DNA from: Nitrospinota bacterium
GTDB lineage: Bacteria > Nitrospinota > Nitrospinia > Nitrospinales > VA-1
Assembly: GCA_009873635.1 (NCBI GenBank)
Contig: WAHY01000002.1
Span: 1 to 51,483 of the forward strand
Reading direction: 5' to 3'
Length of the DNA stretch: 51,483 bases
In this document: piece after piece, positions 6,103-15,834 of the stretch
How the letters are laid out: each line of letters opens with the position of its first letter
How positions within the stretch are numbered: the first letter of the stretch is position 1
Position numbers and translations under genes: made by a program
Notes under the pieces: model-generated
Databases searched by the model: none
Seen by the model: the letters and a program-made list of their open reading frames with translations, nothing else
Told to the model about the DNA's origin: nothing

Positions 6103-7070
6103 TTAAGCATCAGCAGGGCCTGAAATATTAGTACTTTGAAAAGTTGCCATTTCAGAATAAATATTTAATGCTGATTCTATCAGGTCAAAAACCATAACAG
6201 CCCCGGTTCCTTCTCTCATTCTCATTTTTAGGTCAAAAAGGGGCGGCATGTGAAGCAAGTCAAAAAAAACTTCCTGCCCAGGTTCTACAGAACGGTGTGA
6301 TGGAAAAATATAATCCTTCACGGATGGGTTCAGCTTGATAGCCAGGGTTGCGGCGGCACTTGAAATTAAACCATCGACCACAACAGGTATGTTTTTTGAA
6401 GCGGCACCAATCAATAGGCCCACGATACCCCCAATTTCAAACCCGCCTACTTTAGTGAGAATATCTATGGGATCATCTGGATTAGGGGCATGTGTTTTCA
6501 GAGCTTTCTGGATGACGGAAATCTTGTGGTTGAGAGTTTTGTCGTCAATGCCGGTTCCTCTGCCAGTTAATTTGCTTACAGGAAGTCTACTTAATACTGC
6601 AAATATAGCTAAACTGGATGTGGTATTTCCGATCCCCATTTCACCTGAAGCAAAGAGGGCCACCTCCTTGTCGGCCAGTTGTGTTGCCACCTGAATGCCA
6701 ATAGTGATGGATTCTTCAGCCTCTTGTCTTGTCATAGCAGGCATCTGGGCCATGTTGCGAGTGCCGAAGGCTATTTTTCTATCCAGTAAATCAGGGTGTG
6801 GTTCGAAACGGTGGTTGACCCCAATATCTACCACCAATATATCGGCATTCTGATGTCGGGCCAATACATTGATCGCCGTTCCTCCATGACCGCTTTTCTA
6901 TTGATTAAAGCGTTTCCGCGGATAGCGACGTATCTTTTCGCCAGCTCTTCTAAGAGGCCAAGACTTCCAGGTGGTTTTGTGAGTGAGTTGAGATGTGACT
7001 GTGCAGTTTTTAGCCGGCTTGAAGAGACAGGTTTTATAGCTTGCAAAGATTTGTTAATAATTTCAAGCAT
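6103..7070 (-). pseudogene. cobT: CobT, nicotinate-nucleotide:dimethylbenzimidazole phosphoribosyltransferase, broken
   Basis: Two frames together spell most of CobT. The N-terminal piece (7070 down to about 6885) carries the TKPPGSLGLLEELA signature. The rest (about 6885 down to 6103) carries GGTAINVLARH, MGIGNTT, GRGTGIDD, KVGGFEIGG and MREGTGA, the last holding the catalytic Glu. At about 6875-6900 the frame changes, and roughly 30 codons that normally contain the A-D-H-G motif of the active site are missing. Neither fragment can be a functional enzyme. CobT activates the lower ligand in the last steps of B12 assembly. It is the last clear gene of the B12 salvage block. An assembly deletion is the main alternative. 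Confidence 0.85.
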
Positions 7071-7108: not shown

Positions 7109-7489
7109 TTATTCCTCGTCATCTTCTTCCGATTCCTCAGGCTCAAGACCTGCGGCATTTTGTGAGTAGCGAAGGTATTTTATGATTTCGCTGATTTCCT
7201 CAGCAGTTACATTCTTTTTTTGCGAGGGCATTTTATCGGTTCCGTTTAGTACTGTCTCTCTAATATCTTCATCGGAAAAATTTCCCGCCAGATATTCCTC
7301 ATCAATGAGCCTTGGGGCTTGAGTGTGTTTTCCCATTGCGTCAGAGCCGTGGCAATTAGAGCACACCCTGTGGAAATACTGCTGTCCTTTTTTATAGGGT
7401 TCTGGTACTTCAAGTGTGGGTTTTGGGGCACATGAATATATAAAAACTGTTAAGAAAAGTGCGAGAATTGAAATTCTAGTTTGTTTCAT
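7109..7489 (-). CDS. Monohaem cytochrome c lipoprotein
   Basis: A 126-residue class I cytochrome c. The hydrophobic leader ends at C20, a plausible lipobox. The haem motif CSNCH is at 43-47 and the likely distal Met ligand at M87 in KMPS. The C-terminus is a very acidic tail of Glu/Asp. It should sit in the periplasm anchored by lipid and carry electrons. It lies nine bases downstream of the repeat-protein gene and upstream of cobT, in the same direction, so it appears to be in the B12 block. Its redox partner is not in the window. Confidence 0.87.
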   Translation of the reverse strand: MKQTRISILALFLTVFIYSCAPKPTLEVPEPYKKGQQYFHRVCSNCHGSDAMGKHTQAPRLIDEEYLAGNFSDEDIRETVLNGTDKMPSQKKNVTAEEISEIIKYLRYSQNAAGLEPEESEEDDEE

Positions 7490-7498
7490 AGCTTGGAA

Positions 7499-8239
7499 CT
7501 ATTGCCTCCTATTGACAATATCGAGTTTTCCATCATGATCAGTATCTACTTCAACACGCTCAAGCGAGCCTGAGTCGTCAAAGTATTCAAAGCGATCAGT
7601 TTTGCCATCAAAATTTGTATCGTGCTCTACTTTTTTCAGTTGCTTAGATCTTTGGAAATATTGCCATTGGTCCGGTTTACCATCATGATTTGTGTCAAAA
7701 ATGACTGAGGCAAGATACTCATTTTTATCAAAAACCTCCCAACGATCGATTTTGCCATCATTTAGACTATCATATTCAACTTTTTCTATTTTGCCGTCGT
7801 CAGAAAAATATTGAAACACATCCATTTTACCGTCACGATTTTCATCTGTTTCTAGGCTGATAATGGTATTGTTTGGTCCATATATTTCACGCCAATCCAT
7901 CAAACCAGAGAACTTTGAATCCTTTTCAATGTATTCAAGGATAAAGTCTTTAGAATAGTTCTGAACTTGATCGAGAGTTCCATCCAGATTGCGATCCAGT
8001 TCAACACGAACAGGTTTTTTATAGCCATCAAAGATATCTATCTGGTCAATCCTGCCATCCTTGTTTTTATCGTATTCGATCTTAATTAATTGTCCATTTT
8101 CAGATTTATACTGCCATTGATCAAATCTTCCATCCTTATTGCTGTCGACCTGAAAAACCAAAGATTCGGCAACAGTAATCAGCATGAAATATATCATGCT
8201 GGTAAGAATTAACTTTTCTGTTAATTTAATCATGAACAT
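7499..8239 (-). CDS. Exported protein of nine 25-residue DxNxDGxxD repeats
   Basis: After a hydrophobic leader (about residues 10-26), nearly the whole 246-residue protein is a strict 25-residue repeat. Loops begin at D32, D57, D82, D107, D132, D157, D182, D207 and D232. Eight loops fit D-x-N/D/L-x-D-G-x-x-D, the pattern of calcium-binding EF-hand-like or thrombospondin-type-3 loops. The fourth (D107) has lost key residues. Between loops is a beta-like segment with an aromatic Q/E-Y/F pair and an I/V-E-Y/V ending. Function is unknown; a calcium-stabilised extracytoplasmic solenoid or adhesin-like rod is plausible. No good ribosome site is visible; Met3 is an alternative start. Confidence 0.8.
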   Translation of the reverse strand: MFMIKLTEKLILTSMIYFMLITVAESLVFQVDSNKDGRFDQWQYKSENGQLIKIEYDKNKDGRIDQIDIFDGYKKPVRVELDRNLDGTLDQVQNYSKDFILEYIEKDSKFSGLMDWREIYGPNNTIISLETDENRDGKMDVFQYFSDDGKIEKVEYDSLNDGKIDRWEVFDKNEYLASVIFDTNHDGKPDQWQYFQRSKQLKKVEHDTNFDGKTDRFEYFDDSGSLERVEVDTDHDGKLDIVNRRQ

Positions 8240-8416
8240 TTCTAAACCGGTATAAATAAAGCCGGAAGATTAAACATTAGTAAACCTGATAGTACATATC
8301 GTCTAAGATAAAACCTATCATAGAAAAATATAGAGCCTATTCGCTGTCAATGTGGATTCGCTCTGGATAGTTCAAAAAGTATAGATAAAAAATTCTATTC
8401 TTACATTTTAAAATAA

Positions 8417-8971
8417 TTAAAACTCTATACCCTTTTGAGCCGGGATTTTTTGATCTTTAAACGGATGTTTGATCATTTTCATTTCAGTAACGAGATCAGC
8501 TATCTCAATCAGTTTATCGGAGGCATTTCTTCCTGTGCATACAACATGAACCTTTTCAGGTTTATTATTTAGTAATTCTAGGAACTCGTCTTCTGGTAAG
8601 AAATTGTAATCAAGAACGTAATTAATTTCCTCAAAAATAACCATTTGATATTTATTACTCAATAACTTCTTTTTTGCCACTTCAAATGCTTTTCGTGCCG
8701 TAATCATATCCTTTTCAATATTATTTGTATCCCATGTAAAGCCATCACCCATTGCTTCAAACTCGATATATGGAGCCAGTTTTTCGAAAGATTTACGCTC
8801 ACCTGCTTTCCACTGACCCTTCATAAATTGCATGATGAAGACATTCATTTTATTTCCAGCAGCACGCACAGCAAGACCAAAAGATGCCGTAGATTTACCC
8901 TTGCCGTCTCCGGTATTAACTATAATTAAACCCTTTCGCTTTCTGGGATCTGCTCCTGAAGGTTTTCGCAT
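8417..8971 (-). CDS. cobO: Cob(I)alamin/corrinoid adenosyltransferase
   Basis: CobA/CobO/BtuR family enzyme that adds the 5'-deoxyadenosyl group of ATP to cob(I)alamin or cobinamide. The P-loop GDGKGKST at 21-28 follows N-T and is the family hallmark. Later come the FMKGQWKAGE segment and the VIFEEINYVLDY segment, which corresponds to the conserved D-E-x-N region. The 184 residues are typical. It lies downstream of btuB in the B12 block and would convert imported corrinoid to the adenosyl form. Confidence 0.94.
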   Translation of the reverse strand: MRKPSGADPRKRKGLIIVNTGDGKGKSTASFGLAVRAAGNKMNVFIMQFMKGQWKAGERKSFEKLAPYIEFEAMGDGFTWDTNNIEKDMITARKAFEVAKKKLLSNKYQMVIFEEINYVLDYNFLPEDEFLELLNNKPEKVHVVCTGRNASDKLIEIADLVTEMKMIKHPFKDQKIPAQKGIEF

Positions 8972-9065
8972 AAAATATTTAAGGGTGGATAATGATCAGT
9001 GAAATATTTATAAAAGGATATTCAAATTTTTTAAAAAATTAAAACTCTTGAATATTTATTATATC

Positions 9066-11096
9066 TTAATACCTGAGTTCAATTCCAAACATAAAGTTGC
9101 GGGTGAAATTGCTTGGATAAATAACATCATTTCTGAGTGTTGTTCCGTGAGCTCTCTCGAAAAGGTTTTCTACTTTTGCTGAAAGATCAATTTGACTTGC
9201 CCCCAATACTCTTTCTCCCAAAATTTTATATGTATAGATATAAGATATATCGGTTTTGATGAATGCTGGGGTTTTAAAGCTAGGGCTGGAAGAATTGCTT
9301 GGGTCTTCGGCATTGTTTAAGTCTTCGTCAGCTAATGCAGAACTTCTATATGATTGCGTTAATATAACTTTCGAGTGTTCATATGGCTTGAAATTGATAC
9401 CGACTGTTAAGTTGTGTCTAGATACTCCTGGAAGGTCATTTCCTGCGCAGTTATTTATACAATTTGCACTTGATGTTTCTCTGTCGATTATTGCCCGTAT
9501 GTAAGCGTAATTAATTGAGGCAGACAACGATTCAGTGAATGAATACTTGTTTTGTAGTTCAAAACCATACTTTGAACTTCTATCAATACTTACACTATTT
9601 CCAAAGAAACTCACATGCCTATTAAAAACCAACTCATCTCTTAACTTAGAACCAAATAATGTTAGCTTTGTTTTGCTTTTGGGTGTTAAATAATTAAGTC
9701 CCATATTTAAAGTGGATGTTATAACTGGTTCTAAAAATCCAGCAAAGTTTCCTTGGAAATCAAAAAAATTATCAAGGTTGTGAGTTTGGAAAGCATAATT
9801 AAAATTAGAAAAAATATTTAATCTATTACTTAATGATTTATTGATACCAATATCAAAAGCTGACAAATTATCTTGATTTTCTGTTAATGCTCCTTGGTTA
9901 AGAAATGTGTAGTCTATCCACTCTTTTCTAGCACCAAACGAAAAAGTCATTGAACTAAAACCATATTGCCCTTGAATATATATACCCACATTTTCTTTGG
10001 TTGTGGTTGTGGGGGTATCTGTGCCATTACAGTTATCGCATCTGCGGCTCCCATCAAAATACTGAGCTCCTGTAATAATTGTTAAAGGGCCATTTAAATA
10101 CTTGATACTACCATCATAAAAGTGATTATTATATTTTCTAGCATGACTAATGACACGAGTTTGATCTACAAATGAATAATTGAAATTTGTCTCAATATTT
10201 TCATTTATATTTAAAGTGCTACCTAACTCAATGACATCTGTGTTTTCGATTTGATGGGTGTAATTAGTTGGAGTTCCTGCTGCCCCCCTATTATTAGAAC
10301 CAGGGTTCTGTTGAAATGTTGATTTTGATAAAAAATTTGGATATCTATACTCTAAATATGTAGCTTTTTTTTCAATGTAAAGTTTGCTGAATTTTGTGGG
10401 TTTATATTGGAACCTTACTTTAGAATTCAGTAGCTCACCCTTGTCGCGATTTCCATCAGGACCCCTATCACTGAATCCATCTTGTTTGTAGGCATCTCCA
10501 AATGCAGAAAATTGAAATTTTTCAGATGCAAATCCACTGTTTATTGTTGTTGTCATCCGGCCATAGTTTCCCGCTGAAACTGCGATGCTTGTATCAGTAG
10601 AATCTCTTGTGTATATTTGAATTGTTCCACCTGTTGCTCCATCACCGTAAACTACGGAACCACTCCCCTTAGTAATTTCAATCCTATCGATGTTTTGAAT
10701 TGGTATGGAGCTTAAATTTTGCGGTACATCATCAATATTATTTATTCGACGGCCATTTACTGTGACTACAATAGACTGAAAACCTTGCGCGATACCAAAA
10801 CCTCTAAGGTCAAGTTTTTGGCTAAATGGATTCCCTGAGCTTGGCATAGAAACTACGGATGTATTCTGATTTAAAAAATCATAGATAGTTTTAGCACCGG
10901 ATTCTATTATTTCTTTTCGACGATATATTTCTGAAGCATAGGTGGCCTCTGTATCCTTCATTTTAATTTTACTTGCATTGATAACAATTGGATCAATGAT
11001 TATTGGATCACTTTTTTTTTCTGAGTTTTGAGTTTGAGCAGTTGAGGTAGTTGCTAAGAAGAGTATAAATAGAATAATGGAAATACGTTGTTTCAT
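9066..11096 (-). CDS. btuB: TonB-dependent outer-membrane cobalamin receptor
   Basis: Energised transport of corrinoids across the outer membrane. A signal peptide (KQRISIILFILFLATTSTAQ) is followed by a TonB-box-like segment (DPIVINASKI), a plug domain with LDLRGFG, VTVNGRRIN and GSGSVVYGDGATGGTI, and a barrel ending in an aromatic C-terminal strand (FGIELRY). An in-frame ATG at 11156 exists but lies inside the cobalamin riboswitch. ATG 11096, with GAGGGAG just upstream, is the credible start (676 residues). Riboswitch control and neighbours support B12 as the substrate. Confidence 0.9.
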   Translation of the reverse strand: MKQRISIILFILFLATTSTAQTQNSEKKSDPIIIDPIVINASKIKMKDTEATYASEIYRRKEIIESGAKTIYDFLNQNTSVVSMPSSGNPFSQKLDLRGFGIAQGFQSIVVTVNGRRINNIDDVPQNLSSIPIQNIDRIEITKGSGSVVYGDGATGGTIQIYTRDSTDTSIAVSAGNYGRMTTTINSGFASEKFQFSAFGDAYKQDGFSDRGPDGNRDKGELLNSKVRFQYKPTKFSKLYIEKKATYLEYRYPNFLSKSTFQQNPGSNNRGAAGTPTNYTHQIENTDVIELGSTLNINENIETNFNYSFVDQTRVISHARKYNNHFYDGSIKYLNGPLTIITGAQYFDGSRRCDNCNGTDTPTTTTKENVGIYIQGQYGFSSMTFSFGARKEWIDYTFLNQGALTENQDNLSAFDIGINKSLSNRLNIFSNFNYAFQTHNLDNFFDFQGNFAGFLEPVITSTLNMGLNYLTPKSKTKLTLFGSKLRDELVFNRHVSFFGNSVSIDRSSKYGFELQNKYSFTESLSASINYAYIRAIIDRETSSANCINNCAGNDLPGVSRHNLTVGINFKPYEHSKVILTQSYRSSALADEDLNNAEDPSNSSSPSFKTPAFIKTDISYIYTYKILGERVLGASQIDLSAKVENLFERAHGTTLRNDVIYPSNFTRNFMFGIELRY

Positions 11097-11120
11097 AAAT
11101 TTCTCCCTCGAGAATAAGTT

Positions 11121-11257
11121 TCCGGTAGGTCTCCTGACTTTTGGCTGCCTACTCATCGCGCCTTCCCATCAATGATTGACAGTGGCTGATTGCGATTTTC
11201 GTTCCTTTACAGTTGCGGGGCAGTGCTGGAATTTCACCAAGCTTCCCTTAACCGGAC
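11121..11257 (-). ncRNA. Cobalamin riboswitch upstream of btuB
   Basis: Reading the minus strand, the region contains a GGTGAAATTCC element, the GCCCCGCAACTGTAAAGG core, the AGCCACTG element, GATGGGAAGGCGCG, and the B12 box AGTCAGGAGACCTACC near the 3' end. These are the conserved blocks of adenosylcobalamin riboswitches in order. It lies between cobQ and btuB, so btuB and genes beyond have their own B12-repressed control. Confidence 0.95.
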
Positions 11258-11276
11258 TTTTTTAATATTATAGTTA

Positions 11277-12779
11277 CTAATGTAGCCTTCTTTCGATGAT
11301 CTCCATATTGATGGAAGTTTTTACCAGATCCGCGAGCCTGTTGAGTTCGCGTTTTCTAAACTCTGAATAATCGAATAGTTTTTGTGGTTCTGGTAACCCT
11401 TTTTCATTCCTTATATAACGTAAAATATTGTTTCGAAACAAATCATTATCCAGAAATCCGTGAAGATAAGTACCAAAAACAGTACCATTCTGATTGGTGA
11501 TTCCAAAATTCATCGCGTTTTCTCCATTCAATTCGGAAAATAGGGCTTGGTAGATGGAGCCGAATGTGGTGCGGCCCATATGAATTTCATAACCTTCGCA
11601 ATGAAGTCTCTCTGGAAATACATTGCTTATGACAGTTTCAAGTTGTACTTGTCGGGTTAATTTCTCTGGAACAAGTGTGGTCTCAAAATCAAAGAGTCCC
11701 AGTCCGTTTATTTCTTTTTCACGGCTTTCCAGATTATCAGGATCTTTAATTTTCCTGCCGAGCATTTGAAATCCACCACAAATTCCAAGGATCATGGAAC
11801 CTGATTTATGATGTTTGATAATCTCTTTGGTCATCCCCTGTTGATTTAGATAATTCATATCACCCACAGTATTTTTACTGCCTGGCAGAATGATCAAATC
11901 GTGAGCTCTTAATTGCGATGGATGCTGGATATATTGCAAAGATATATTTGGATCAAGAGCCAGTGGTGATAAGTCTGTAAAATTTGCAATTCTAGGTATT
12001 TCAATCACTGCTATATTCAAAGGATTCTGCACCTTGTTTTCTGCAAAGTAAGATCGCTGTGGAATGGAGTCTTCTTCATCGACAACCAAATCATGGAAGT
12101 AGGGGATGACACCTAAAACCGGTTTGCCAACCATTTTTTCAAACTGTTCTATTCCCGGTTTCAACATTTCGATATCACCGCGGAACTTATTGATAATGAA
12201 TCCAAGCACTCTGTTCTGTTCATCTTCGGAAAAAAGATCATAGGTACCCTTTAACCATGCAAACACACCTCCCTTGTCGATATCCCCGACGATGAGTACT
12301 GGGGATTCGGCCTTTTCAGCGATGAACATGTTCACAAGGTCCCATTGTTTCAGGTTGATTTCGGCAGGGCTCCCGGCTCCCTCAATAATGACCAGTTCAT
12401 AGTTTTTTTTAATTTCATCAAGGGCTTGAGTGACCACTTTTTTATGCTGAAGATGTCTGGAATAAAAGTCTTTCGCATTTTTTGAACCTACAGGTTTTCC
12501 CATCACGATTACCTGGGAATTGTTGTCTTCTGAAGGTTTTAAGAGAATAGGGTTCATCAACACGTCTGGTTTCAATCCGCTTGCTTCTGCCTGGTAAGCT
12601 TGAGCTCGCCCGATTTCGCCGCCGTTTTCCGTTACAAAAGAATTCAATGCCATATTCTGAGCTTTGAAAGGGGCCACCTTGTATCCGGCCTGATAAAAAT
12701 ACCTACAGAATGCCGCAGTGAGGACACTTTTTCCTACACCGGATCCTGTTCCCTGAATCATTAAAGTTTTAGCTGTCAT
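11277..12779 (-). CDS. cobQ: Cobyric acid synthase CobQ
   Basis: Glutamine-dependent amidase that adds four amides to the corrin ring side chains of adenosylcobyrinic acid a,c-diamide. The P-loop-like GTGSGVGKS is at 10-18, KAQNMALNSFVT at 39-50, and the glutamine amidotransferase nucleophile C334 in GICGGFQMLG with the paired His in TYLHGFLDN near the C-terminus. Length 500 is normal. It begins four bases after btuC ends, so it is in the btuFDC operon. No upstream ring-synthesis genes are in the window. Confidence 0.95.
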   Translation of the reverse strand: MTAKTLMIQGTGSGVGKSVLTAAFCRYFYQAGYKVAPFKAQNMALNSFVTENGGEIGRAQAYQAEASGLKPDVLMNPILLKPSEDNNSQVIVMGKPVGSKNAKDFYSRHLQHKKVVTQALDEIKKNYELVIIEGAGSPAEINLKQWDLVNMFIAEKAESPVLIVGDIDKGGVFAWLKGTYDLFSEDEQNRVLGFIINKFRGDIEMLKPGIEQFEKMVGKPVLGVIPYFHDLVVDEEDSIPQRSYFAENKVQNPLNIAVIEIPRIANFTDLSPLALDPNISLQYIQHPSQLRAHDLIILPGSKNTVGDMNYLNQQGMTKEIIKHHKSGSMILGICGGFQMLGRKIKDPDNLESREKEINGLGLFDFETTLVPEKLTRQVQLETVISNVFPERLHCEGYEIHMGRTTFGSIYQALFSELNGENAMNFGITNQNGTVFGTYLHGFLDNDLFRNNILRYIRNEKGLPEPQKLFDYSEFRKRELNRLADLVKTSINMEIIERRLH

Positions 12780-12783
12780 ATTC

Positions 12784-13800
12784 TTAAACGGGTCTTTTTC
12801 TTTTCAGGAGCCATACAAAGAATGGTCCACCAAGCATTGCTGTAATAATTCCTACTGGAATTTCTGTTGGAGCAATAATAGTGCGAGCCACTGTGTCGCA
12901 GATGATTAGAAAGCTGGCACCGAATAACATTGAAACCGGTATAAGTATTCTCAAATCAGAGCCTACAATCAACCTGGCGATATGTGGAACAATCAGTCCT
13001 ACAAATCCAATGGGGCCCGTGATGGCCACGACAGTGCCAGTGATTAATGATGCGGTGATAAAACCTGCTCTTTGAATGAGTGATACATCGACACCTCTGC
13101 TGATTGCAGAGTGAACTCCGGTACTAATAAGATTCAGGTCGCGACTCACATATACGAGTATTCCAATTCCAAGGAATACCATGGGAAATATCGAAAGGAC
13201 TGTTTGATAACCTATGATATCCAATCCTCCCATCAGCCATCTAATTATCCTGAACGACTGGCTGAAGTCTGATATATAGTGGATGAACATAACCATTGCC
13301 GCGAAAAAGAAATTAGCAGTAACCCCTGCCAGTAATAGAGTGCTCGTGGGGAAATCACCATGCCTTGTTCTGACAAGACTGAAAACAAGGAAAATAGCAC
13401 CAAGTGCTCCCAGAAAAGCAAAAAGTGAGACCATGGGAAACCCAAGTATTGAAATATTAAAATTCAGAACGATTGCCAATACAGCTCCCAGTGCGGCACC
13501 ACTGGAAACACCTAATGTAAAAGGCGCGGCCAGGTCGTTTCTCAAAAGTGCCTGAAAAACAGCACCGGCAACAGAAAGAGCTGCACCAGTTACTGCCCCT
13601 AGAAGAATCCTTGGTAAACGAACCTGAAAAAGTATATTGGCGTCCAGATTATTGTTTGCATAAATTCCACCTGATAGCGCGTTAGCAAGATTAATCTTAG
13701 TCGATCCAATCAGAGGAGTTGCACAAAGAGTGGCCATAAACAGGAGCATAAATATGGCAAGTGTTAACTTATAAGATTGTGGTCCTAATTTTGTGTGCAT
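12784..13800 (-). CDS. btuC: Vitamin B12 ABC transporter permease
   Basis: FecCD/BtuC family inner-membrane permease with about ten hydrophobic segments over 338 residues. Family signatures include RLPRILLGAVTGAALSVAGA near 62-81 and GFVGLIVPHIARL. It would form the channel with BtuD and receive corrinoid from BtuF. It starts five bases after btuD ends and is followed closely by cobQ. Iron-siderophore permeases have the same fold; the B12 role is inferred from the riboswitch and neighbours. Confidence 0.92.
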   Translation of the reverse strand: MHTKLGPQSYKLTLAIFMLLFMATLCATPLIGSTKINLANALSGGIYANNNLDANILFQVRLPRILLGAVTGAALSVAGAVFQALLRNDLAAPFTLGVSSGAALGAVLAIVLNFNISILGFPMVSLFAFLGALGAIFLVFSLVRTRHGDFPTSTLLLAGVTANFFFAAMVMFIHYISDFSQSFRIIRWLMGGLDIIGYQTVLSIFPMVFLGIGILVYVSRDLNLISTGVHSAISRGVDVSLIQRAGFITASLITGTVVAITGPIGFVGLIVPHIARLIVGSDLRILIPVSMLFGASFLIICDTVARTIIAPTEIPVGIITAMLGGPFFVWLLKRKRPV

Positions 13801-13805
13801 GTTTA

Positions 13806-14585
13806 CTATTTGCTGGAAATTGGGTGTACCAGTATTTCTCCATCTAGAAGATGCAAATTGACATTTATGTCATAAACACTTTCTAATACTTCTTTCTTCA
13901 GAACTTCTTCAGGGGTTCCGTCGCGAACAATGGATCCTTCATTTAAAAGAATGAGTCGCCGACAGTACCTGGAAGCCAGGTTGAGATCATGCATGGCCAG
14001 GATCAATGTAATATTCTTATCTTCGTTCAAGTGTTTCAGGATATTTAAAATCTGAACCTGATATTTGAGATCCAATGCAGATGTTGGTTCATCCAACAAC
14101 ATGATTTCAGGTTCCTGTGCGATTGCACTGGCAAGAATGACTCTTTGTTTTTCTCCGCCACTGATTTCGTTGAAATAGCGATCAGAAAACTTTGAAGTAT
14201 TGGTGGTCTCCATAGCCTGACGTGCTATTTGATAATCTTCTTCCCCTTCAAATGAAAGGGGAGAAAGGTAAGGATGTCTGCCCATTAAAACTATTTCCTG
14301 TGTCGTGAAAGGAAAAACCATGGGATGCTCCTGAGGGACCCAGCTTATGATGCGAGCTAATTCTTTCTTATTGATGTGATTGATTGACCGTTGGTTTAGT
14401 TGAATAGAGCTTTCGGTGCATGGCAGTAAGCCTCCCGCCAGTTTTAGTAAAGTAGATTTGCCCGAACCATTGGGCCCTATCAAACCGATAAAATCTCCTT
14501 GCTCAATACTAAATGAAATACTTTTTAAAACGTGCTCCGAATCGTAGGCAAACTCCAGGTTTTTCACTTCCATTTGAGTTTTCAT
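13806..14585 (-). CDS. btuD: Vitamin B12 ABC transporter ATPase
   Basis: Cytoplasmic ATPase subunit of the BtuFCD importer. Walker A GPNGSGKST is at 37-45, the signature SGGEKQRV at 142-149, Walker B IMLLDEPTSALD at 161-172 and the switch His in the MHDLNLA segment. Length 259 fits the FepC/BtuD family. Its start overlaps the end of btuF by four bases, indicating coupled translation. Confidence 0.93.
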   Translation of the reverse strand: MKTQMEVKNLEFAYDSEHVLKSISFSIEQGDFIGLIGPNGSGKSTLLKLAGGLLPCTESSIQLNQRSINHINKKELARIISWVPQEHPMVFPFTTQEIVLMGRHPYLSPLSFEGEEDYQIARQAMETTNTSKFSDRYFNEISGGEKQRVILASAIAQEPEIMLLDEPTSALDLKYQVQILNILKHLNEDKNITLILAMHDLNLASRYCRRLILLNEGSIVRDGTPEEVLKKEVLESVYDINVNLHLLDGEILVHPISSK

Positions 14586-15520
14586 GGCAAACCCTCTTTA
14601 AGGAAAATATCAGGGTGTATCGCTCTTGAAAACTGTTCAATAATATTTAGTAAACGTGGACCAGGGATGAGAATATAATCTGCGCCGATATAATGGATCT
14701 GTCCCTTTTGAACAGCTCTTATAGAAGGAAAACGTTCCCACCCTTTTATTCTTTCCTTAATTTGAGGCGGTGTAAGCCGGGATTTTGGTCCAGCTTCGAT
14801 AATAACCTCTGGCGACTTTTCTATAATATATTCCTTCGTAATCCTCGGATATTTAGCCATTGTTGTAGGGAGTATATTTTTACCGCCAGAAATCTCTAGA
14901 AGCTCATGCAGAAAAGTACCGTGGCCTGTTGCATATAGATCGCGGCCTGGATCACTGCTATCTCCCAACAAAAGTAGAGCCTCTTTTGGAGCAACACCAT
15001 TTAATTTTTCTTTATAAGAGCTTATTCCTTCTGTTAGTTTTTTTATTAATTGCTCAGCGTTTTTTTCAACTCCCAAGGTTTTTCCCAAAATCTTTATTGA
15101 GTTTAAAATGTCGGTCAACGTGTCCATATTAATTCCGAAGGAGGGTATATCTAAACTTTTTGTGTTTCTGGCAAGTTTAGCACTATGAGACAGATGCAGA
15201 ACTAGGTCAGGTTGGAGGGACACTAATACTTCTATATTTGGATTAATTGCTCCTCCAATACTTGGGAGCTTGCAGGCTTCTTGAGGATATTTGCAGAAAT
15301 CGGTAACAGCAATAACGCTGTCCTTTAGACCCAGCTCGAACAGAGTCTCGGTTATAGAAGGGGAGGCGGATACGATCCTGTTGGTAGGTTTATAAATTGA
15401 ATTACTTGCCCAAATTACAGGGGATATTGAAAGAAAGAAAAACAGAAAAACAAAAAGAAAGACGACTAGGTAGGAATCTTTGAATTGACCTTTAGGTCTA
15501 AAAGAAGTGAAAAATTTCAC
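14582..15520 (-). CDS. btuF: Periplasmic vitamin B12-binding protein
   Basis: Substrate-binding protein of the B12 ABC importer. A long hydrophobic leader (about 18-38) is followed by the family start RIVSASPSITETLFELGL, a middle domain, and the ending that resembles HPDIF. The 312 residues fit a helical-backbone-linked two-lobe binding protein. It is the first gene after the 15603-15757 riboswitch and overlaps btuD by four bases. The leader lacks a clear lipobox. Confidence 0.9.
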   Translation of the reverse strand: MKFFTSFRPKGQFKDSYLVVFLFVFLFFFLSISPVIWASNSIYKPTNRIVSASPSITETLFELGLKDSVIAVTDFCKYPQEACKLPSIGGAINPNIEVLVSLQPDLVLHLSHSAKLARNTKSLDIPSFGINMDTLTDILNSIKILGKTLGVEKNAEQLIKKLTEGISSYKEKLNGVAPKEALLLLGDSSDPGRDLYATGHGTFLHELLEISGGKNILPTTMAKYPRITKEYIIEKSPEVIIEAGPKSRLTPPQIKERIKGWERFPSIRAVQKGQIHYIGADYILIPGPRLLNIIEQFSRAIHPDIFLKEGLP

Positions 15521-15602
15521 CGGAATTTCCTCGTTCCAGCGAAAAGAGGTGATAAAGCGCGTAGTCTAGCTTAACTCACCTCAGGCCGCGAAGGTTTAGT
15601 TA

Positions 15603-15757
15603 ACAGGATCAGAGTCAGGTGTTCTGGCTTCCGGATTATTCGAATTCCCGCGCCTTCCCATTTGAAATCAAACAGTGGCAAATTGCGAGGTTCGTCCCCG
15701 GTTACAGCGGCGGGACCGCGACGGATTTACACCGTCTTCTCTGCGATCGACCCTAAT
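15603..15757 (-). ncRNA. Cobalamin riboswitch upstream of btuF
   Basis: On the minus strand the conserved blocks appear in order: GACGGTGTAAATCCGTC, GGTCCCGCCGCTGTAACCGG, TTGCCACTG, AATGGGAAGGCGCGG, and the terminal AGCCAGAACACCTGACTCTG. These define an adenosylcobalamin riboswitch. It controls the btuF-btuD-btuC-cobQ unit. It fills most of the 314-base gap 15521-15834. Confidence 0.95.
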
Positions 15758-15834
15758 GAATTTTTAAGAAGAATAGCAAAATACTTGTGAAAGTCAACTG
15801 ACATTGAGCCAGCATTATTAACTCAATACGTTCT

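Follow-up and report, generated by a model that had tools for sequence, protein, structure and literature searches.

Nitrospinae are the main nitrite oxidisers of the sea. They have been reported as B12 auxotrophs equipped with btuBCDF, and three Nitrospinae strains keep yvqK, bluB and cobS for a possible salvage of cobinamide (PMC8026999). In Nitrospina gracilis, the genes leading from cobyrinate to AdoCbl are kept, and DMB is released (PMC11428151). The genome described here (G000) shares with N. gracilis and the other Nitrospinae auxotrophs the import via BtuB/BtuCDF and the dependence on external B12. Whereas the cultured Nitrospinae keep bluB and cobS (and N. gracilis the steps from cobyrinate to AdoCbl), the lineage of G000 has lost these functions.

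G000 is a MAG of the genus Nitrospina with a size of 2.62 Mb in 54 contigs and a completeness of 95%. The window analysed here consists of the first 51,483 bases of its contig C2 (219 kb). It contains a cobT gene split into two pieces, which is very probably a real and recent pseudogene, left over as the final piece of a nucleotide-loop pathway that has been lost in a cell importing complete cobamide.

Organization of the cobamide locus

The reference for the comparison was the late cobamide (nucleotide-loop) cluster of Nitrospinaceae, whose proteins were named by Pfam and NCBIfam, including a CobU+BluB fusion, CobD (TIGR01140), a CobB-like protein and TonB. The genus member G002 shows the gene order btuF-btuD-btuC-cobQ-btuB-cobB-cobO-cobS-cobU::bluB-cobD-cbiB-tonB-EFhand-cytc-cobT-dapL-folK, which is matched by the remaining genus members where the contigs allow, apart from small differences (e.g., G004 is without the EF-hand gene). 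The window shares the locus, the gene order and the flanks of this cluster (cobO, EF-hand, cytochrome c, dapL, folK, thiI), but it is devoid of cobB, cobS, cobU::bluB, cobD, cbiB and tonB, its cobT is a pseudogene, and only cobO and cobQ are left. Next to cobT, the following features are present:

7109–7489, minus strand: cytochrome c gene (PF13442), preceding cobT in relatives; synteny anchor
7499–8239, minus strand: gene for an EF-hand-like repeat protein; synteny anchor in relatives
8240–8416, minus strand: 177-bp AT-rich scar, by synteny at the place of cobS, cobU::bluB, cobD, cbiB and tonB of relatives (~5 kb)
8417–8971, minus strand: cobO/btuR corrinoid adenosyltransferase, intact (PF02572, E = 2.4e-65; TIGR00708 over cut-off)
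8972–9065, minus strand: 94-bp gap, at the place of cobB between btuB and cobO in G002
9066–11156, minus strand: btuB-type TonB-dependent receptor, intact (PF07715), directly behind a cobalamin riboswitch
11107–11271, minus strand: cobalamin riboswitch upstream of btuB (RF00174, 96.9 bits)
11277–12779, minus strand: cobQ cobyric acid synthase, intact, orphan in G000 (NF001989, 618 bits; cut-off 273)
12784–13800, minus strand: btuC permease (PF01032, E = 7.9e-88)
13806–14585, minus strand: btuD ATPase (PF00005, E = 7.5e-32)
14586–15565, minus strand: btuF-like periplasmic binding protein (PF01497, E = 3.5e-29)
15597–15769, minus strand: cobalamin riboswitch upstream of btuFDC-cobQ (RF00174, 91.6 bits)

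A cobalamin uptake set of BtuB, BtuC, BtuD and BtuF with cobalamin riboswitches is therefore present in the window. Because the binding protein reaches only 83 bits with the BtuF model itself (cut-off 234), its identity as BtuF rests on its position and the PF01497 match. The initial annotation had described the B12 block around cobT as otherwise intact, which holds for btuFCD, cobQ, btuB and cobO, all of them complete, but not for cobB, cobS, cobU::bluB, cobD, cbiB and tonB. On one continuous contig, a stretch of 177 bp separates cobO from the EF-hand gene, with the ~5 kb from cobS to tonB missing, and 94 bp separate btuB from cobO, with cobB missing. A search of 8240–8416 and 8972–9065 for remnants of the deleted genes gave only short matches at chance level. 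One match of ~24 bases, which lies immediately 5' of the EF-hand gene and involves the 3' end of tonB, was repeated with three relatives, albeit with E values of 1.6–5.

Genome-wide family searches of G000 yielded no match for CobS, CobU or CbiB, all of which are present in 11 genus members. This was also the outcome of the search for cobS and cobU proposed in the initial annotation. Likewise, BluB (TIGR02476) gave no match genome-wide, CbiC/CobH (PF02570), a corrin-ring marker for de novo synthesis, was absent from G000, and CobQ was its sole full GATase_3 protein. These absences refer to the whole assembly, and a relocated cobS/cobU set could in principle sit in the ~5% missing from the MAG.

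The CobU-BluB fusion forms one protein of ~420–460 aa in most Nitrospinaceae and in several families of the order (L032:2122–3378 and genus relatives). BluB/CobT fusions have already been published (PMC4657239), and no description of a CobU-BluB fusion was found in our literature search. In the 1.7-Mb genome of G004, cobU is present without the BluB half (L135:10081–10695), and no BluB was found above the cut-off elsewhere. G004 keeps cobS, cobT and cbiB intact, indicating a different stage of loss.

The interrupted cobT gene

CobT is the nicotinate-nucleotide:DMB phosphoribosyltransferase (PF02277, TIGR03160; PDB 1d0s, 1wx1, 6b5f), and both pieces found in the window are clear homologues of it:

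6103–6888, minus strand: cobT pseudogene, C-terminal piece, stop-free, corresponding to residues 94–353 of CobT of a relative; contains a 253-aa ORF starting from TTG (6103–6864)
6885–7070, minus strand: cobT pseudogene, N-terminal piece in the other frame, corresponding to residues 1–64 of CobT of a relative (tblastn); the 80-aa ORF spans 6828–7070
6887–6889, minus strand: junction of a 91-bp deletion in the DNA alignment with genus relatives; the segment with base pocket and ADHG motif is missing

The ORF at 6828–7070 matches positions 1–44 of PF02277 (E = 1.6e-7, 31.4 bits), and the one at 6103–6864 matches positions 91–329 in a different frame (E = 6e-93). In the whole-genome search, the match of the C-terminal piece extended over positions 83–329 (E = 2.9e-97). 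As both matches are significant, the pieces represent a CobT homologue by descent, and the C-terminal one still shares 78% identity with CobT of the relative G013. Instead of the single frame of ~335–355 aa of a functional CobT, the gene thus consists of two ORFs in different frames, as the initial annotation had claimed. The search for a second or intact cobT suggested there was negative as well: the two pieces were the sole matches in the G000 assembly up to E ≤ 10.

Aligning the DNA with that of 11 genus members revealed a single 91-bp gap at about position 6888, between GCGGTC and ATGGAGG. A few codons before it, there is an extra gap of 6 bp that keeps the frame. Because 91 is not divisible by three, the reading frame of cobT shifts at this point. 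The missing segment, which reads VVFAADHGVTEEG...QNF in relatives, comprises ~30 codons (residues 65–93 of a relative) and corresponds to about residues 65–93 of S. enterica CobT, as deduced by aligning an intact relative, used as a bridge, to 4kqj. This agrees with the earlier statement that ~30 codons including the ADHG region are lacking. The ADHG motif and the base-pocket positions 80 and 88 (S80/Q88 region) are therefore absent from the window copy. At these two positions, 4kqj contains Tyr and Met, a known base-pocket variant of Ser80/Gln88.

The C-terminal piece has kept the catalytic Glu317 of the (L)GEG(S/T)GA motif, but the preceding Gly, which is invariant in the 11 genus relatives, is replaced by Arg (G316R in Salmonella numbering). 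Its score of 312.0 bits falls below the TIGR03160 cut-off of 319.3, while an intact relative reaches 461.8 bits. In comparison with functional CobT, the window copy is therefore broken in frame, devoid of residues ~65–93, altered next to the catalytic residue and placed under the equivalog cut-off.

Decay of cobT in related genomes

Remnants of cobT are also present in G001, where residues 8–61 in two frames and residues 312–353 remain directly before dapL, and in G021, a member of another genus (L131 7796–8040, 12843–12950), where cobT has shrunk to its last 36 codons and cobQ to its first 83, the latter in two frames. The locus of G021 retains btuFDC, btuB, cobO and the 3' part of tonB. In G024 and G016, the EF-hand and cytochrome c genes are present and cobT is absent. 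A tree of eight neighbouring proteins groups G001 with G013 and G003, which contain intact cobT genes, with 100% support, and places G000 alone on a basal branch among the genus members sampled, where the adjoining node has a support of only 67%. A shared ancestral loss of cobT in G000 and G001 is not supported by this tree, which indicates that both lost the gene separately. The loss in G021 was most likely separate from either of them.

Some other genomes of the genus showed further deviations. In G011 (L029/L034), cobT is split by a one-base insertion in an A-run (A8 vs. A7) at about codon 50, representing either a frameshift or a homopolymer error. G006, G010 and G014 gave no matches for cobS, cobU, cobT, cbiB or dapL, due either to a gap in the assembly or to a loss of another kind; CbiC is nevertheless present in G010 and G014.

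We also considered an error of assembly or sequencing, by which 91 bases would have been dropped from a gene still intact in the cell. G000 is a MAG of many contigs, both cobT pieces are well conserved, and the one-base homopolymer frameshift in cobT of G011 indicates that single errors may arise in such MAGs. We nevertheless regard this explanation as unlikely. Comparison with the flanks of relatives revealed no direct repeat of more than ~2 bases at the junction, and because at most ~2 bases are shared, there is nothing to suggest that a k-mer assembler collapsed a repeat. Moreover, partner genes are missing from the same locus, and CobU and CobS would be lacking even if CobT were intact. 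Finally, cobT has also decayed in G001 and G021, and because the lesions differ between the assemblies, a biological origin is favoured over an artefact. The decay of cobT is an ordinary case of pseudogene formation in the course of reductive loss, repeated and well staged across the relatives.

Age of the loss and selection on the remnants

Selection on ten genes was assessed from pairwise NG86 counts together with the lengths of the terminal branches. The C-terminal piece of cobT shows no stops over ~255 codons and a pN/pS value of 0.18, similar to the values of intact genes; this type of test has little power here because synonymous sites are near saturation (pS 0.5–0.85). The increase in dN of G000 over the genus was highest for this piece (1.73), by a small margin over the other genes (1.07–1.59). 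The number of singletons in the piece was 14 in G000 and 9 in the long-branch control G004, which is not clearly raised given the long branch that G000 has in most genes. A stop-free remnant with low pN/pS indicates either that the inactivation is recent or that the piece is still under constraint, and we consider a recent loss far more likely.

The intact state of cobQ fits poorly to a fully abandoned pathway. The gene is constrained, with a relative dN of 1.39 like that of housekeeping genes, although no cobB, cbiB, cobU or cobS is left in G000. Because CobQ lacks both a source of cobyrinic acid a,c-diamide and a CbiB to use its product, cobQ is probably an undecayed relic, as illustrated by the degraded copy of G021, and it is probably next to decay. 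A repurposing of these pathway relics, in which the C-terminal remnant of CobT and the orphan cobQ would still be expressed and under selection for a role other than cobamide assembly, appears very unlikely to us.

We also consider it very unlikely that the 253-aa C-terminal piece is still made from its TTG and functional as such, possibly together with the N-terminal piece. Its stop-free frame, its low pN/pS and the retention of the catalytic Glu and most of the fold would agree with such a role, but the central motif and the base-pocket segment are missing, the otherwise invariant Gly beside the catalytic Glu is exchanged, the relative dN is the highest of the ten genes, the equivalog cut-off is not reached, and most of the same part is deleted in G001 and G021. 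A recently inactivated cobT therefore remains the preferred reading.

Proposed use of cobamides and biological meaning

A demand for B12 is indicated by a MetH-type ORF at G000:C13, which was read in part and matches TIGR02082 (metH, E = 5.9e-128) together with PF02310, PF02607 and Pterin_bind. B12-binding_2 domains occur in nearly all relatives. The 1.6-Mb family member G023 (91% complete) gave no B12-binding_2 (MetH) match and possibly does not use MetH any longer.

In the course of events that we propose, the partner enzymes would have been lost first, leaving CobT without use and ending the selection on it. Complete cobamide would be taken up via BtuB/BtuFCD and adenosylated by CobO, and the product would then serve MetH and other B12 enzymes, while the cell would be unable to attach or exchange a lower ligand. 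The reliance on imported complete cobalamin, one of two possibilities raised in the initial annotation, is most likely correct, as transport genes are kept and late-step genes are absent. The other, a different lower-ligand route replacing CobT in a cell that still attaches its own lower ligand, found no support and has a next to negligible probability. Other base-activating routes are known in bacteria, but CobU and CobS, on which the attachment of every lower ligand to the ring depends, are undetected in G000 together with CbiB and BluB, and no known route could thus join the nucleotide loop.

While the B12 auxotrophy of Nitrospinae is already known, the additional loss of the late steps appears to extend this picture by a further detail, for which no earlier report was found in a literature search of partial coverage. 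Cultured Nitrospinae, which possess the late steps, could make use of corrinoids that are incomplete, or could release DMB, whereas lineages of the G000 type have lost this ability. Such a loss apparently occurred at least three times (G000, G001 and G021), with lesions at different stages. These lineages are predicted to depend on complete cobamides from their neighbours and to be unable to rebuild cobamides with a wrong lower ligand or to use cobinamide.
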